Assembly (NCBI GenBank): GCA_016214905.1 | Contig: JACRMQ010000004.1 | Location: 124,001-188,000 of the forward strand | DNA: 64,000 nucleotides | Reading direction: 5' to 3' | Source: Ignavibacteriales bacterium | GTDB taxonomy: Bacteria > Bacteroidota > Ignavibacteria > UBA10030 > SZUA-254 | Shown here: piece by piece, positions 9,165 through 34,410 of the stretch | Position numbering within the stretch: position 1 is the first letter of the stretch | Layout: every line of letters begins with the position of its first letter | Notes under the pieces: generated by a model | The model's input: only the letters and a program-made list of their open reading frames with translations | What the model was told of the DNA's origin: nothing | Databases searched by the model: none | Program-made: the position numbers and the translations under genes

Positions 9165-10409
9165 ATGCCAGATACTAAAATACATGATGTTCTCAACCGT
9201 ACCGCTGAATCATACGTTAAACTCGTTCTGTCGGTTGGTCAGCACGACGGAAGTTATGTGGATGCTTATTACGGACCGGTAGATTATCTTCAGGAAGTAA
9301 AATCTGAGAGGCGCACACTCCCTGAAATAAAATCATCGGCTGAAAATGCAATAGCGGAATTGAAGTCACTTGATTGCGCACGGGAAGAAGAAATCGTTCA
9401 GTTACGATGGCAGTATCTTAAAACGCAGTTACAGTCGCTGATAGCACGCGTTGAGATGTTGGAAGGGAGGAAGTATTCATTCGACGAAGAAGCGAAAGCA
9501 TTATACGATGCAAATCCACCTTCGTACCCGGAGAGTCATTTTCAGAAAATTATTTCTGAGATGAATGAATTATTACCCGGTGATGGATCGGTGAGCGAGA
9601 GATATGACCAGTTTAAAAAAGAATTTATCATTCCTAAAGATAAATTAGATTCAGTCTTTAAGGCAGCAATTACCGAGTGCCGCCAACGGACGAAAGAATA
9701 TATTGAGCTTCCTGAAAATGAAAGCTTTACAATCGAGTATGTAAACGACAAACCTTGGAGCGGATATAATTGGTACAAGGGCGGTGGATTTAGCTTGATT
9801 CAAATGAATACTGATCTGCCGATTTACATCGATCGTGCAGTTGATCTTGCCGCGCACGAAGGTTATCCCGGACATCATGTCTATAACTTTTTGCTTGAAA
9901 GTATTCTCTACAAAAAATACGGATGGGTGGAGGCATCGGTTTATGCTTTGTTCAGTCCGCAATCTTTGATTGCAGAAGGTACGGCAAATTTCGGTATCGA
10001 TGTGGTTCTGCCCGGAAAAGATAGAATTGAATTTGAAAAAAAGATTTTATTTCCCATCGCCGGTATGGATAGCAATAAAACCGAAAGTTATTACCAAATC
10101 CATGAGCTGTTTTTAAAGTTAGGATATGCCGGTAACGAAGCCGCACGAGGTTATCTCAACGATACAATGACACGCGATGAAGCGGCGATATGGCTTGTGA
10201 AGTACGCGCTCATGTCACCTGACCGCGCGCTACAACGCACGCGCTTTTTTGATACTTACCGCAGTTACGTGATTAACTATAATCTCGGACAGGATTTGGT
10301 GAAGCGGTATATCGAGAAGTGCGGCGGCACACCCGATAAACCCCAAAAAAGATGGGAAGAATTTAAGAAATTGATTTCATCACCGAGGTTGCCGTCGGGG
10401 TTGGTATGA
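9165..10409 (+). CDS. DUF885-family putative zinc peptidase
   Basis: 414 residues, no signal peptide. The motif HEGYPGHH at residues 231-238 is the zinc-binding signature seen in DUF885 proteins (HExxPGHH), distantly related to gluzincin carboxypeptidases. A helical N-terminal half precedes it. Downstream segments such as SPQSLIAEGTANFGID supply a plausible third ligand in an EG motif (AEGTAN). The protein ends with a short basic tail. It stands alone between the DUF559 unit and a convergent gene. Substrate unknown; peptidase activity is inferred from the motif. Confidence 0.8.
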   Translation: MPDTKIHDVLNRTAESYVKLVLSVGQHDGSYVDAYYGPVDYLQEVKSERRTLPEIKSSAENAIAELKSLDCAREEEIVQLRWQYLKTQLQSLIARVEMLEGRKYSFDEEAKALYDANPPSYPESHFQKIISEMNELLPGDGSVSERYDQFKKEFIIPKDKLDSVFKAAITECRQRTKEYIELPENESFTIEYVNDKPWSGYNWYKGGGFSLIQMNTDLPIYIDRAVDLAAHEGYPGHHVYNFLLESILYKKYGWVEASVYALFSPQSLIAEGTANFGIDVVLPGKDRIEFEKKILFPIAGMDSNKTESYYQIHELFLKLGYAGNEAARGYLNDTMTRDEAAIWLVKYALMSPDRALQRTRFFDTYRSYVINYNLGQDLVKRYIEKCGGTPDKPQKRWEEFKKLISSPRLPSGLV

Positions 10410-29434: not shown

Positions 29435-30478
29435 ATGAAATCACACCTAAACACTCTCTTACTGATAATCACCATTCTTCTTCTTGCTTTTACGGGGGTG
29501 GCACAATCTGTCCGGCCGATTCGCGACGATGTTGGATATTGCTGGAAAATGAGTGATATAACCAAATTAATCGATTATCTTGAAGTAAATGAAACAGGGA
29601 AAAAGATAGATAATATCATTGCAGGTATTTTACCGCATGATGATTATCTCTACGCGGCAAGAATATATTATCCGCTTTTTCGTTCGATAAAATCGAAAGA
29701 AGCTGTAATCTTTGGCGTAACACACGGAACCGTGCGCAAAGAAATCGGTGATCCGCAGAATATAATATTGCTGGATGGATATGATGAATGGAAGGGGCCT
29801 ATAAAAAACATTCAGATATCACCGCTTCGGGAGTTTATCAAGGCGCATCTTGATACATCCCTCTTTAGAGTAAACAATAAAGCTCATGAACTGGAGCATT
29901 CAATTGAAGGACAGTTACCTTTCCTGCAATATTATAATCCCGACATAAAAATAACACCGATCATGGTAACGGCAATGACGTTTGAAAAAATGGAAGAGGT
30001 TTCGGCGAAACTGGCTGCAATCATTTCGGAATATGTTAAGGAAAAGAATTTGATAATCGCGAAGGATATAGTTTTCTTGATCTCATCGGATGCAAATCAT
30101 TATGGCAAAGACTTTAACAACATTCCGTTTGGAGAAGATTCTGCCGCTCATAAGAAAGCGATCGAGCAAGATATAAGAATCGCTGATAATTATTTGAAAG
30201 GTGAAATTCAACCTGAAAAGATAAAAAAGTTTACTGAAGAGATGAAGAATGTAGTTTGGTGCGGGAAGTATTCCATCCCTTTCGGTTTATTAACGACAAA
30301 GAAAGTCGTTGAGATTGTTCAGGATAAGAATATAAAAGGTGAAATAGTTAGATACTCTGACACATACACCGAAGGCGTGCTCCCGGTAAAAGGGACAGAG
30401 TTAGGAACAACCGCCCCATTTTCACTCAAACACTGGTGCGGATTTTTGAGTGGGGTGTTCTATACTGACATTAAATAG
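29435..30478 (+). CDS. Exported MEMO1/AmmeMemoRadiSam-B family protein
   Basis: 347 residues. An N-terminal signal peptide (LNTLLLIITILLLAFTGVAQ) precedes a MEMO-like domain whose landmark residues are all there in order: His68 (GILPHDDYLYA), His97 (GVTHGT), EHSIEGQLPFLQYY, SSDANHYG and the Cys of WCGKYSIPFGLL. Classic members are cytosolic and lie beside an AMMECR1 and a radical-SAM gene. Here the protein is exported and alone. The metal site suggests an enzyme, but the family's substrate is not known. Confidence 0.85.
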   Translation: MKSHLNTLLLIITILLLAFTGVAQSVRPIRDDVGYCWKMSDITKLIDYLEVNETGKKIDNIIAGILPHDDYLYAARIYYPLFRSIKSKEAVIFGVTHGTVRKEIGDPQNIILLDGYDEWKGPIKNIQISPLREFIKAHLDTSLFRVNNKAHELEHSIEGQLPFLQYYNPDIKITPIMVTAMTFEKMEEVSAKLAAIISEYVKEKNLIIAKDIVFLISSDANHYGKDFNNIPFGEDSAAHKKAIEQDIRIADNYLKGEIQPEKIKKFTEEMKNVVWCGKYSIPFGLLTTKKVVEIVQDKNIKGEIVRYSDTYTEGVLPVKGTELGTTAPFSLKHWCGFLSGVFYTDIK

Positions 30479-30532: not shown

Positions 30533-31651
30533 TTATTTTGATGGAGAGCTTTCACATCTAAATTTATCGAAAGTTTTGATCTGTTGCCGCAGTTCTTCAG
30601 ATTTGATTTTCATTTTCCATTTCTTAGCCGCGCGTGTTGCATGATTAACATGAATGTCAAATGAATAATCTTTCAACTTATCGGTAATATCACCTGAGAG
30701 TCTTTCATTTATATCAATCATTTTTATAGGAGATTGACAGGAGAAGTCTAGTTCCTCAAAGTCTATCATTCTAATTTCGTTGTGATTGATGGTTTTAAAA
30801 AATATGCGGCGACTCTTTGTATCAAAAACCATACTCCAAAGCGTTGGACTCCCATTTATCTTTTGACCACTTACCTGATCCAGTATTTCGAAGGCATAGT
30901 TAATAACCGATTGGGAATCGCCCGGCTCATATGATGATACCATTTCTGCGGCTCTTGTGAATCGGCGTAAGGACGAGTTCGTTTTTGCAGCCGGCTTTAC
31001 AATCTTATTCAGAACGGAGATTTTATTCCATTCCGATATTGATTGATCATAAGTACTGTTTGCCAGAACAGTGACCGGAAGATTTTTACCTGAGTGAGCC
31101 ACCATTTTCCCGTTCAGGAATTCAATGGTAGCACAATTACCATATTTGTCGCTGATCAGGTAATGAGGAATAAAGTAAGGCGGAACATTTCCAAATGTAC
31201 GCAGGGAGGAATCGGTTGCAATAACTTCTTCAACCGTTGAGAAATTATCGAGCATGTACTGTAACCATAAAGAAGTATGTATCCATGGTCGCTCATCAGG
31301 TTTAGGAAATTTACTCTCTCTAAGTCCCATTAAACTGATGACGAGTCCTGCCTCGTTCATCCCCGCGAACGCGGCTTGACCCGTAACCAGATTGAAGCTG
31401 ACACTTCCATACTTCGATCTCCAGCATAGATGTTTGCTGAACGAATCAGATTCTAAAAAATCTTTTGATACGTTCCGTTTGTTGACAAAAATCAATCCCT
31501 CAGGAATATCTTTCGGATAATCGTAATTTGATCCGAATACAGCATAACCACTATTCCTTAGACAGAACGATGTACACTCCTGCGGTGCCGGTTGAGCCAG
31601 TATAAGATTGATTGAAATGATGAAGAGGAGGAAATAATATTTAATTTTCAT
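30533..31651 (-). CDS. Secreted linear-amide C-N hydrolase (choloylglycine/penicillin V acylase type)
   Basis: 372 residues. The signal peptide MKIKYYFLLFIISINLILAQ is followed by PAPQECTSFCL, where Cys26 or Cys30 would become the N-terminal nucleophile after processing. Family motifs are VFGSNYDYP, GMNEAGLVISLM and the conserved Asn in NSTYDQS. This is the Ntn-hydrolase superfamily that cleaves linear amides such as bile-salt conjugates, penicillin V or N-acyl homoserine lactones; substrate cannot be told from sequence. It is a single gene, convergent with the MEMO gene. Confidence 0.88.
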   Translation of the reverse strand: MKIKYYFLLFIISINLILAQPAPQECTSFCLRNSGYAVFGSNYDYPKDIPEGLIFVNKRNVSKDFLESDSFSKHLCWRSKYGSVSFNLVTGQAAFAGMNEAGLVISLMGLRESKFPKPDERPWIHTSLWLQYMLDNFSTVEEVIATDSSLRTFGNVPPYFIPHYLISDKYGNCATIEFLNGKMVAHSGKNLPVTVLANSTYDQSISEWNKISVLNKIVKPAAKTNSSLRRFTRAAEMVSSYEPGDSQSVINYAFEILDQVSGQKINGSPTLWSMVFDTKSRRIFFKTINHNEIRMIDFEELDFSCQSPIKMIDINERLSGDITDKLKDYSFDIHVNHATRAAKKWKMKIKSEELRQQIKTFDKFRCESSPSK

Positions 31652-31682
31652 AAATGCCGTTGTGAAGTGAACTTTCTTTCAG

Positions 31683-31766
31683 TTGTCATGTTGAGCGCAG
31701 CGAAACATCTCAATGATCGAAGTATAAGATTCTTCACTTCACTACGCTCCGTTCAGAATGACATGT
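31683..31766. repeat. Dispersed palindromic element (TGTCATTCTGAACGGAGCG type)
   Basis: TTGTCATGTTGAGCGCAGCG.. at 31683, and on the opposite strand from 31764 TGTCATTCTGAACGGAGCG.., each ending in AATCT/ACATCT. The arms face each other over a 16-base spacer. It belongs to the same broad class as the element at 11.6 kb. It sits upstream of the Ntn-hydrolase gene and downstream of the first cassette-like gene, and it may have disrupted the attC-like site there. Confidence 0.75.
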
Positions 31767-31863
31767 GAGAGCAACAGTATGTTCCGGTGAAAAATAAACG
31801 ATGCAGGATATCTTTTTATATTGACGGCGCCTGTCTCATCATCTTTTGATGGGAACCTTTTAT

Positions 31864-31887
31864 AAAGTGTTATGCGAAACGCGGCTA
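31864..31887 (-). repeat. attC-like half site (R''-type) at the end of a hypothetical gene
   Basis: On the minus strand, TAGCCGCGTTTCGCATAAC starts at the TAG stop of the gene and contains GCATAAC at 31875-31869. This is an inverted near-copy of TAGCCGCGTTGCGCATAAC at 32437-32454 on the plus strand. The partner core expected further left was not found; a palindromic element occupies that place. Confidence 0.5.
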
Positions 31888-32397
31888 TGGTATAATATTG
31901 AGTTCACATATATCTTCTGCTTGGGTTCCTGCTATTAGGTCATGAAGCACTGCCCGAATTTTGTATTTTCCTAATGGATCGCCTATTTCAGGCATAATTG
32001 TGAATGCGCGATCTGCAAGAATATAACCGAAGTTTGAAGAAACATGTTTTTTAGAATCTAGAAATTCATCATTACGATACACTTCTTTTCCATCTGGCCC
32101 TTCAACGCTAATGTCAATTCTGTAATGTCGAATTGAATCGCGAGAAAGCGAAAGGTTTGCAACAATGAAGCCAGCGTTTACCATCTGCCCAACATGTGCA
32201 ACATTAGTCGTATCAATGCGCGGATGATGGTGATAGTCAGTTGTCATCCATTCTTCTTCAAAATTCAAATTTGCAGAAATAAATGCGTCTATAAATGGAT
32301 AAGACGGTTCATCGTGAGATAATGTGTCATTTTGGGCTTGCGTTATAGTAAGCAAACATATTTGCAGGATCGTAACGTATATTAGCCTTTTAGTCAT
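31885..32397 (-). CDS. Secreted hypothetical protein (cassette-like)
   Basis: 170 residues from MTKRLIYVTILQICLLTITQ, a clear signal peptide; the open frame extends 10 codons further upstream. The mature part has a His-rich stretch (WMTTDYHHHPRIDTT). It is followed by beta-sandwich-like sequence (HYRIDISVEGPDGKEVY, DPLGKYKIRAVLHD) that resembles an accessory Ig-like fold. No family assigned. Its stop codon lies inside the left half of an inverted repeat, and the right half lies 40 bases upstream of its start. This fits a gene carried as a mobile integron-type cassette. Confidence 0.7.
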   Translation of the reverse strand: MTKRLIYVTILQICLLTITQAQNDTLSHDEPSYPFIDAFISANLNFEEEWMTTDYHHHPRIDTTNVAHVGQMVNAGFIVANLSLSRDSIRHYRIDISVEGPDGKEVYRNDEFLDSKKHVSSNFGYILADRAFTIMPEIGDPLGKYKIRAVLHDLIAGTQAEDICELNIIP

Positions 32398-32435
32398 ATA
32401 ATAAATGCCTTCAAAGAATTGGTACAAAGTTTATA

Positions 32436-32524
32436 TAGCCGCGTTGCGCATAACGCTGCGCGGGAAAAACGAACGTGCGAGCGAACGGCTCTTGCCCATT
32501 GAGGGGTGTAGCCCGCACAACGAT
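32436..32524 (-). repeat. attC-like recombination site (integron cassette boundary)
   Basis: Read on the minus strand the region has the arm CGTTGTGCGGGC (from 32522), about 45 bases with an imperfect palindrome, then CCCGCGCAGC immediately followed by GTTATGC (32454-32448). The two arms pair over 11 positions with two G-T pairs. GTTATGC is close to the attC core GTTRRRY. A diverged copy lies at 33491-33560, and both lie just before same-strand genes. Confidence 0.5.
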
Positions 32525-32549
32525 TTTGAGACATCATAATAGAGTATTG

Positions 32550-33461
32550 CTATTGTTCAATACGTTTCCTCAACTTGTTTGCCATCTCAATGTCGAGCGT
32601 CTTAAGCTTTTCATAAATAGTCGAAGCGGAATCTTTGTGCCCAGTCAGAAGATAGCATTGACCAAGAGCGTAGAAGTTCATGGGGTCAGATGACCCAAGC
32701 TTGGCGGCGTGGTTTAGAGCGACAATGGCTTCAGCGTATTTCCCCATCTTCCCGTATACAACGCCTGAATTAGTATAGGCTTTTGAAAATTTATTATCTA
32801 GTCCGATTGCCTTTTGAAAACACTCAGATGCTTTTTCTAACTGCCCAAGTTTTCCGTAGGCTTCTCCCAGAGCATTATGAAGGTCAGCCTCATCGTTATG
32901 AAGCTCCACAGCCTTCTTATACGATTCGGTTGCTTCGGGGAAACGATTGAGTTTCGCTTGGATGGAGCCTAGACGTGCATATGCTCTCCAGTTCTTTGGA
33001 TCCCTGACTGTTCCTCCGAGAAAAATGGCTGCCTTCACTTCGTCTGTGGATAGCCCAATAAGTTTCTCGAGTCCTTCTCCTCCATGGCCAGAACCTATCT
33101 CCTTGATAGATGCTATTATCTCTTTAGCTTCTTCAACTTTGCCTAAGACAAGATCGGTTAGAACGAGGTTGTGAAGGGCTATTATTTTATTTTGTGAAGA
33201 GCGTAATTCGAGAAACGTATTTCTTGCACCTTCCCAATCACCTTCGATGGTTTGTGCAACACCCATGTTCAGTTTAATGTTGTCATAGTCGTGCGTATTT
33301 TCTTTGACATGCGATAACAACTCGCGGTAGTAGCCTACAGTAAAATCTTCAACAGTTGATTGGGCAAATAGATTGCAAGCGATAATTAGAGATAAGAAAG
33401 TTAAAAACACAATTGACTCAGTATGGTAATTTGATCGTTCAGTAATAGTTTGAATTTGCAT
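32550..33461 (-). CDS. Secreted TPR-repeat protein (cassette-like)
   Basis: 303 residues. After the signal peptide (SIVFLTFLSLIIACNLFAQ) come at least five tetratricopeptide repeats, for example WRAYARLGSIQAKLNRFPEA, DLHNALGEAYGKLGQLEKA, AYTNSGVVYGKMGKYAEA and NFYALGQCYLLTGHKDSA. TPRs mediate protein contacts, and a periplasmic scaffold is the likely role. The base composition looks richer in G+C than that of neighbouring genes. The gene lies between two related attC-like sites in the orientation expected for a cassette gene. Confidence 0.82.
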   Translation of the reverse strand: MQIQTITERSNYHTESIVFLTFLSLIIACNLFAQSTVEDFTVGYYRELLSHVKENTHDYDNIKLNMGVAQTIEGDWEGARNTFLELRSSQNKIIALHNLVLTDLVLGKVEEAKEIIASIKEIGSGHGGEGLEKLIGLSTDEVKAAIFLGGTVRDPKNWRAYARLGSIQAKLNRFPEATESYKKAVELHNDEADLHNALGEAYGKLGQLEKASECFQKAIGLDNKFSKAYTNSGVVYGKMGKYAEAIVALNHAAKLGSSDPMNFYALGQCYLLTGHKDSASTIYEKLKTLDIEMANKLRKRIEQ

Positions 33462-33490
33462 GAAAACTCCTTTCCTAATAGTTGCGTGGC

Positions 33491-33560
33491 ACCTATCATT
33501 GCGCAGGAAAAACTAAGTGAGCGGACGTGAGCTTCTTTTGCACACGAACCAACCACACAC
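33491..33560 (-). repeat. Second, diverged attC-like site
   Basis: The plus strand reads ACCTATCATTGCGCAGGAAA then AACTAAGTGAGCGGACGTGAGC. It shares the block GCGC(A/G)GGAAAAAC(T/G)AA and the following GTGAGCGGACG-like block with the site at 32.45 kb. On the minus strand the core position reads GATAGGT, one base from GTTAGGT, a canonical GTTRRRY core. A short arm TGTGCA can pair with TGCGCA. Confidence 0.42.
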
Positions 33561-33885
33561 ATTTTGTCGCTACGCTTTTTATTTTCAATTTAATTATCTA
33601 ATATTTTATATTCGTCTTTCATGCAAGCTCATCAACATACTCACGCACTCTAAATTTCCCTATATCAACTTCCACTACGCGTGAGTTCTCTCAATATCAA
33701 CCCATCTCTTCGTGATGTTTAAATTAGGGAACATTCTTCAAAGAGTCAAGCAAAATATCTTCCGTCAACACTAGATTTTCATCTTTTTTATTATCTTATC
33801 TGCATAACCGTCTCCCATTAAAAGGCGCCGCCTGTACATATATGGTGTTTAAGTTTATTTATTGGCAATAATGCTTAAAATGAAC
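33561..33885. other. Non-coding AT-rich stretch
   Basis: No supported gene. Near 33800-33835, GCATAACCGTCTCCCATTAA followed by AAGGCGCCGCC partly matches the minus-strand sequence at 31.82-31.87 kb (GCATAAC.., TCCCATCAAAAG, GGCGCCG), so a further decayed site of the same family may be present. Confidence 0.4.
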
Positions 33886-33889
33886 GTTT

Positions 33890-34300
33890 TTAAGGGAAAA
33901 TACGGTTCGCACATTCAATCGGGGAGTTCTAACTTCCAACCGGTGCTCTTACAGGTGTTGGGCGGGACTTCCAACTCCCAATCTGTAAGCCCGTACTTAC
34001 TATCCGTCAATCTCCAATTACTATCCAGGACTCTCTATTTACAAGATGCCCCGGTTATCGCACCGCCATACACTCTCCAAATACAATTTGTAACATCGCA
34101 CTCATCGTCTGCAAATCTCCAACTTCCATCCGTAACTCCGCACCAACTGTACGGGGCTACCCGGCGGGATCTGCAGGTCCGCACTTCCCATTTGGAGAGT
34201 TGCACTTTCCTTTTGCATACCCGCACCCGGCAAGTGCCCACTTGCTCTTGCCGTTTGGAGAGTGTACGGTGATAGGAATATTTACCTCGATACCTTCTGC
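33890..34300. repeat. Degenerate tandem-repeat tract
   Basis: Repeated variants of a CTCCAACTTCCATCCGTAAC-like unit recur irregularly: ACTTCCAACTCCCAATCTGT, AATCTCCAATTACTATCC, ACTCTCCAAATACAATTTGT and AATCTCCAACTTCCATCC, then two TTTGGAGAGT units. The stretch is markedly richer in G+C than its surroundings. Open frames exist on both strands but look like by-products of the repeat (SNLQLPS-like on one strand, DWELEV/GSWRF-like on the other), so no gene is called. Confidence 0.6.
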
Positions 34301-34410
34301 GTTTACCCGCACGGGCGGTGCGCACTGTATCCTGCTTGATGGGAAACCCACGCCGTTAATTGGAAAAACAACTACAGCGCAAATAATCTCCCACACTGGG
34401 GTATACTGCT

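Follow-up and report, generated by a model that had tools for sequence, protein, structure and literature searches.

A stretch of 64,000 nucleotides (nt) from an Ignavibacteriales bacterium (assembly GCA_016214905.1, contig JACRMQ010000004.1, positions 124,001 to 188,000), called the window below, carries a compact minus-strand locus of two genes and several structured sites. Read along that strand, it consists of a promoter-like leader, the stub of a recombinase gene, a half-site, a gene for a tetratricopeptide repeat (TPR) protein, a second half-site, a cassette for a 180-amino-acid (aa) protein with matching ends, and a terminal half-site. The TPR gene (32550-33461), the first cassette-like gene, encodes 303 aa with matches to PF00515 and other TPR families, and its N-terminal segment looks signal-like by eye. 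The cassette gene (31885-32427; 170 aa if started from the ATG at 32397) encodes an exported-looking protein that matched no Pfam family and had no homologue at E <= 1e-4 across 59 other genomes. Rfam models at gathering scores gave no match within the window. We read the locus, with a probability of about three in four, as the relic of a chromosomal integron platform that lost its recombinase gene, and that would belong to a class in which the recombinase lacks the I2 insertion of the integron integrase IntI and is codirectional with the cassettes.

The 180-aa gene is flanked by an inverted repeat with 23-nt arms that are 91% complementary. One arm lies in the cassette start G|TTATGCGCAACGCGGCTATA (32434-32454), and the other in the cassette end TATAGCCGCGTTTCGCATAAC (31866-31894). 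Pairs matching at 21 or more of 23 positions with starts 400-900 nt apart occurred once in the window, at the ends of this gene, and never in 20 dinucleotide shuffles. Since matching ends of the form G|TTRRRY ... RYYYAAC are the mark of a gene cassette, the 180-aa gene is bounded like one. It is closed by terminal element B (31806-31875; RYYYAAC-ACTTTATAAAAGG...), a 3' conserved segment of the platform that may be the left half of an attC site or its decayed remains. Copies of B were found in the genome (E 1e-25), at C4:233.5k (97%) and C6:765.6k (93%), each closing a cassette-like gene.

A first-pass annotation of this DNA had proposed an integron-cassette remnant in which a structured site precedes each of two same-strand genes. 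Both genes are indeed on the minus strand, and the GCGC(A/G)GGAAAAAC blocks that it described were located at 32458-32470 and 33501-33513. Half-site A2, between the genes (32446-32524), is an attC without its R''-L'' half; the repeat GAGCCGTTCGCTCG (32491-32478) seems to mark a deletion junction and is followed by L'-R' GTTTTTCCCGCGCAGCGTTATGC and the core GTTATGC (32454-32448). Copies of A2 were found in the genome (E 2e-16). It is 89% similar to the region behind a recombinase gene on contig C1 and 98% similar to an attC at C4:236k, and these two homologies have 14 nt in common at the direct repeat GAGCCGTTCGCTCG, suggesting that a deletion between such repeats removed R''-L''. Half-site A1, before the TPR gene (33489-33513), is 83-85% similar to the same genome copies over 39-47 nt. 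It consists of L' GTTTTTCCTG and the degenerate core GATAGGTGC (33497-33489), with a motif score of 6.9 bits against 18.8 for the A2 core. The claim of a core at each site was thus borne out at A2, and at A1 only in degenerate form. The complementary GCATAAC core, proposed to start right at the stop codon of the shorter gene, is present (31875-31869), but 9 nt past that codon. The description of these sites as attC-like holds in part: they have copies in the genome, but they are half-sites, and a covariance model built on 16 attC of the same genome gave no match in 31.6-33.9 kb. Elsewhere in the window the model gave four weak matches in a search with E up to 10 (E 0.31 to 4). Complete attC at the locus were ruled out, because only the L'-R' half is kept and the model finds no match there. 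The GCGC(A/G)GGAAAAAC block was also ruled out as an attI, because the copy at C4:236k is, by eye, part of the attC that goes with a non-coding cassette whose ends match.

The leader (33590-33760) contains a promoter-like TTGACT-N17-TAATTT (33749-33721) and an inverted repeat formed by GAACTCACGC (33688-33678) and GCGTGAGT (33650-33639). At its downstream end, the reading frame MKDEYKILDN* (33590-33622) matches by eye the last codons of a recombinase gene, whose intact form ends in ..TKDEHKIQHGTQKLLK*. That intact gene is found on contig C1. At C1:164.6k, the same leader (81%, E 7e-33) is followed by a full tyrosine recombinase gene (C1:164721-165644) and then by a cassette array that runs to the contig end; six attC of this array entered the covariance model. 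Leader copies were present at eight loci at E <= 2.1e-6, the window included, and at two weaker ones (E 0.001 and 0.004) that read alike; one further match at E 0.09 was left out of the count. The recombinase gene is cut down to its last codons (by eye) at the window, C7:243k, C6:462k, C6:765k and C6:374k. The locus had been proposed to be a cluster of attC sites lacking an integrase (CALIN). This name does not fit exactly, because its sites are half-sites without a model match and because a leader and a recombinase stub come before them, which indicates an integrase-deleted platform instead.

The gene adjoining the locus, which codes for an HD-domain protein, was found in 11 of 12 genomes searched, including its own, and allowed the position to be compared between species. 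In a species of the same genus (G001), the leader lies at the same place upstream of the HD gene (79%, E 3e-24) with the same stub by eye. Neither of the window's two genes was found in the 15-kb stretch of G001 (tblastn, E 1e-4), and the same stretch gave no counterpart of the far-flank neighbours (30533-31651 and 29435-30478). In place of the two genes, G001 carries a lipoprotein-like gene and one that encodes a secreted protein of 383 aa, separated by an attC (E 1.2e-13). Near the HD gene of another relative (G005) there are attC sites and a broken recombinase of the I2-less kind. The stub common to both species suggests that the recombinase was probably lost here before the species split and that the cassettes changed later. 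For the cassettes to change in this way, the platform would have had to be acted on in trans or to lose genes from a larger array once shared by both species. The view of the locus as an integron-cassette remnant is thus upheld by cassette-type ends, by real attC elsewhere in the genome and by the sister species, in which leader and stub recur with different cassettes and the two genes were not found at this position.

Complete attC in the genome have the order RYYYAAC, short spacer, L'', loop, L', longer spacer, GTTRRRY. The covariance model found 29 sites genome-wide at E <= 1e-3, 16 of which are its training set. In the 16-site alignment, 98.9% of 176 cells of the L stem were paired, against 67.5% after shuffling and at most 49.4% when the arms were slid, and two-sided changes numbered 51 against 15 in shuffles. 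The L stems of these sites are paired and covary strongly. Three model matches at C6:693382-696110, outside the other loci described, probably mark another array. Secreted proteins with sorting-like tails encoded in the arrays would point to the Bacteroidota-Ignavibacteriota side.

The recombinase at the head of the C1 array is the only protein of its genome that matched at E <= 1e-40, and homologues at this threshold occurred in 23 of 60 genomes, its own included. Residues R146, K171, H238, R241, H264 and Y273, which we take to be catalytic, are invariant in the family. Alignment with IntI4 (2a3v) and IntI1 showed that the whole I2 insertion is missing from the C1 protein. It scored 245 bits against the cut-off of 265 of the IntI family TIGR02249 and passed the XerA-type model NF040815 (230 against 220). 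As the first-pass annotation had stated, the window holds no integrase: none of 17 genome-wide matches to integrase profiles (E up to 10) falls in it. The annotation had also proposed to look through the genome for an IntI with the extra helix; no protein in this 99.6% complete genome exceeded the TIGR02249 cut-off, and the array-head recombinase is without that domain. I2 was missing from all 20 aligned recombinases (its own and 19 from relatives) and present in all 13 canonical proteins and IntI1. IntI above the family cut-off occurred in 13 of the 60 genomes, two of which (G019 and G023) carry both kinds. An AlphaFold model of the recombinase (mean predicted local distance difference test score 79) has no helix at 194-215, the expected place of I2. 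The top three fold matches were 4a8e (Z 21.9, root-mean-square deviation 9.8 over 254), 2a3v (Z 20.5, 8.7 over 257) and 5hxy (Z 19.2, 9.9 over 245). They are archaeal XerA (4a8e and 5hxy) and IntI4 (2a3v), the last of which has the I2 insertion, unlike the C1 recombinase.

In a small tree with I2 columns kept, the I2-bearing IntI formed one clade (14 rows, support 100/100), and the I2-less proteins fell outside it. The same was seen in a larger tree with I2 columns dropped, where the IntI clade had 35 rows and a Shimodaira-Hasegawa-like approximate likelihood ratio test (SH-aLRT) value of 100. Loss of I2 from modern IntI is unsupported, since the I2-bearing clade contains no I2-less protein. 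Two Xer-like proteins of the same genome (L011 and L012) fell outside both the I2-less and the IntI groups (100/100), and the recombinase did not group with them, as would be expected of XerC/XerD chromosome dimer resolvases. The I2-less proteins of the order formed one group in the larger tree (SH-aLRT 90) and did not resolve as one group in the tree with 14 IntI rows; in the larger tree the six Bacteroidota array rows did not form one group, and deeper forks were weak (56). Because the I2-less rows do not join as one group and the root is not fixed, the trees are compatible with both an ancestral and a parallel origin of the I2-less state.

The I2-less recombinases are linked to arrays. A cassette-start motif (GTTATGCGCAATTGCC-like) was derived from 48 sites of 13 loci in which sites had already been seen, with L094:3972 removed as a false match. 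We searched with it up to 310 nt downstream of the recombinase genes. A core with the cassette-start extension was found there in 13 of 19 loci (p < 0.01 each). Of the rest, the own locus and L062 are without the core TT, L059 has a GTTCCGC variant, L077 reached p 0.03, L076 failed and L075 is cut off. In L073 the best motif score was within the coding sequence, and a core is visible downstream by eye. Several attI are palindromic beside the core: for eight of them, chosen by eye for their palindrome, pairing was seen in 89 of 112 cells, against at most 58 when slid. Among the 56 candidates scored per genome, two or more attC model matches were present in 18 of 22 genomes with an I2-less recombinase and in 5 of 37 without one (own genome excluded); the Fisher p of 2e-7 exaggerates this contrast, since the genomes share ancestry. 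No such link was seen with canonical IntI (5 of 13 genomes with it, 18 of 46 without).

Extrahelical bases on the R''-L'' arm, a trait of canonical integrons, are missing from most attC of the order. We scanned 13 loci, allowing spacers of 0-7 nt on both sides and one bulge on either arm, and 33 of 40 candidate sites had a perfect stem, four a bulge on the R''-L'' arm and three one on the other arm. Across 19 loci, six of Bacteroidota included, 34 of the 37 sites with a perfect stem had the longer spacer on the L'-R' side, by 2-3 nt, a difference to be read apart from absolute spacer lengths, which are inflated by ties. Other attC scans covered R''-L'' spacers of 0-3 or 1-3 nt only, and one kept L'-R' spacers of 4-6 nt, so that this range is partly built in. 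The canonical attC counted in 16 control loci (one in NR1, two in L131 and one in L187) all had R''-L'' bulges, with spacers of 4-5 and 6-7 nt; a third L131 site could be read either way, and matches in L174, L190 and L214 were ambiguous and were not counted as canonical. A folding search beside canonical or partial IntI of the relatives (L122-L135) gave candidate sites of mixed kinds in 4 of 14 stretches. In these 14 stretches, the canonical IntI genes of the order mostly have no recognisable array close by.

Beyond the order, the best 80 of 590 loci from named genomes were compared. Of these, 76 were aligned, four fragments being left out, and 55 were without I2 and 21 with it. An earlier split of 17 and 63 rested on an I2 pattern that overlooked L185, L198, L211 and L213, four members of the IntI clade with 20-26 residues in the I2 columns. 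Among the 63 loci that this split took to be I2-less, 27 attC-like matches lay downstream on the coding strand, against 6 downstream on the other strand and 11 and 10 upstream. Sixteen of the 27 came from four loci, those of Rufibacter sp. SYSU D00344, Seonamhaeicola aphaedonensis, Algibacter onchidii and the metagenome-assembled genome GWF2_41_31. A second scan added two attC-like sites each in Flavobacterium aciduliphilum and Winogradskyella ursingii. For most I2-less homologues, for example those of Alphaproteobacteria, these scans found no array.

We propose that an intact platform of this kind has a leader with a probable outward promoter, which would read through the recombinase gene into attI and then into a one-strand row of promoterless cassettes. 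The I2-less recombinase would cut at G|TTRRRY like IntI and would recognise attC as folded hairpins, inserting circular cassettes at the attI directly behind its own gene. As the stems in the order carry few extrahelical bases, strand polarity would have to stem from another asymmetry, such as an unpaired spacer that is 2-3 nt longer on the L'-R' side. In the window, the recombinase gene would have been deleted down to its last codons, and the attI or first site would have decayed. The attC between the two genes would have lost its left half, probably through the deletion between direct repeats, leaving one intact-ended cassette closed by the terminal half-site. Satellite platforms like that of the window may be served in trans by the single remaining recombinase. 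More broadly, recombinase and hairpin sites might form a complete gene-capture system, a natural I2-free class of integron that would be widespread in the order and occur also in Bacteroidota, as a surviving pre-I2 state or a parallel solution, with integrase-less platforms refilled in trans. We give this broader proposal about even odds.

Several observations weigh against these interpretations. The platform is known from its sequence, and recombination is a predicted activity. A scan for the sigma-70 consensus did not pick the leader promoter, which is thus a promoter by resemblance. The attI behind the only full recombinase of the genome is without the core TT (GATG|ATGCGC; L021 5690-5705), as are those of L020 and L062, and it may no longer accept cassettes. 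Beside the relatedness of the genomes and the limited number of candidates scored, the link between recombinase and sites has exceptions: four of 23 genomes with an I2-less recombinase (G013, G035, G037 and G050) have fewer than two attC, and G046 (7 sites) and G049 (9) have neither recombinase at the cut-offs used. The six Bacteroidota loci had four perfect stems, eight with a bulge on the L'-R' arm and one with a bulge on the R''-L'' arm, so that bulge-free stems are not general to all I2-less systems. A site beside a canonical IntI (L122 of G038, 9296-9370) has a perfect L stem and a 2/6 spacer, and spacer asymmetry (1-3 nt) is seen in the canonical controls too, few as their attC are. Element B is also poorly accounted for by the platform explanation.

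A rival explanation takes the arrays to be ordinary integron debris, built by canonical I2-bearing IntI that were since lost or are rarely sampled, with the I2-less recombinase as an Xer-like bystander at the array head. IntI above the family cut-off does exist in 13 of 60 genomes, the cores are the canonical GTTRRRY/RYYYAAC, the recombinase falls short of TIGR02249 and passes NF040815, and a bulge-free site adjoins the canonical IntI of G038; moreover, three genomes with canonical IntI only (G020, G028 and G029) show 2-3 attC model matches. We nevertheless consider this explanation unlikely, because the 99.6% complete genome has no canonical IntI, because the site type tracks the I2-less recombinase and not canonical IntI, and because a core lies directly behind the I2-less gene even in diverged homologues.

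Two other explanations concern the locus itself. A dispersed or transposon-like element with inverted ends, moving as a unit with integron parts inside, would account for the 5' box upstream of the leader (33802-33829; GGCGCC-TTTTAATGGGA-GACG-GTTATGC), which by eye looks like a diverged inverted copy of element B (complement GGCGCC..TTTTGATGGGA..GTTATGC), and for the long 5' flank that three leader loci have in common. Yet the C6:765k locus has element B with a different 5' flank, and the resemblance of box and element was judged by eye only, which makes such an element improbable. Insertion of single cassettes into ordinary chromosome at attG-type sites, by a recombinase encoded elsewhere and with no platform here, would agree with the finding that both ends are intact in one cassette only. 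It appears the least probable of all, since the leader, stub and element B are common to other platform loci and the leader and stub also stand at the position in the sister species.

Compared with canonical IntI integrons, for which the class 1 integron of plasmid NR1 served as yardstick, the I2-less systems are alike in the G|TTRRRY and RYYYAAC cores, the hairpin attC, the promoterless cassettes in one orientation and the recombinase beside attI. They differ in that the recombinase is without the I2 domain and codirectional with the cassettes; the aadA1 attC of NR1 has an extrahelical base on the R''-L'' arm, which attC stems of the order mostly lack. Chromosomal integrons of the Treponema type are similar in that intI is transcribed toward attI in the cassette direction, and PMC3607928 treats them as ordinary intI integrons. 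CALIN, as outlined in PMC9024848, have cassettes without an integrase in cis, and the window differs from them by its half-sites, leader and recombinase stub. For an 'integron-like' subgroup of simple tyrosine recombinases, PMC8138268 calls the insertion essential to integron function.

The I2 helix is stated to dock extrahelical attC bases, and PMC7790495 describes it as a requirement for capturing cassettes and as the novelty that made single-strand recombination possible. The order thus lacks both I2 and most of its ligand, a pairing not seen in this form in Bacteroidota. When extrahelical bases were removed from Vibrio cholerae repeat (VCR) sites, the spacer was still able to impose strand choice, according to PMC2727003, and the spacer may be the polarity determinant in the I2-less system. 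The origin of I2 has been posed as a chicken-and-egg paradox: how could I2 and attC have evolved one without the other (PMC4792948)? If the I2-less arrays are active, a living system of attC, array and attI without I2 would make this question testable in cultured bacteria. In the literature searched, whose scope left out most subscription papers and all preprints and whose texts were partly accessible, we found no integron or array headed by an I2-less integrase. Taken alone, the window locus would be of modest interest, while the I2-less class to which it points would be of high interest if activity were shown.

If such systems are real, tools that require the extra domain may overlook them or class them as CALIN. 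Among such tools, IntegronFinder relies on a profile of that domain; the recombinase does score below the TIGR02249 cut-off.

Some minor features were also observed. Boxes similar to the 5' box precede the platforms at C7:243k and C7:31k (by eye). In both the 5' box and element B, GGCGCC, TTTTRATGGGA and GTTATGC follow one another (by eye), so that the two halves of one attC would seem to frame the entire platform. The repetitive stretch adjoining the leader (33900-34330; repeats D1, D2 and I6) resembles the sequence that precedes the leaders at C7:243k and C7:31k, and an intergenic inverted repeat, CGTTGTGAAGTGAACTTTCTT / AAGATTCTTCACTTCACTACG, lies beyond the cassette region (31658-31746). 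The L122 site of G038 is 75 nt long with fully complementary R boxes, resembling the sites of I2-less arrays. A non-coding cassette similar to repetitive extragenic palindromic (REP) sequences, with its own attC (CGGGAAAAAC .. GTTTTTCCCG), occurs in several platforms, at L021 5660-5900, L018 9930-10230 and L020 5960-6240, and a similar REP-like cassette (CGGGAAGTAC) is found in locus L081 of a relative.

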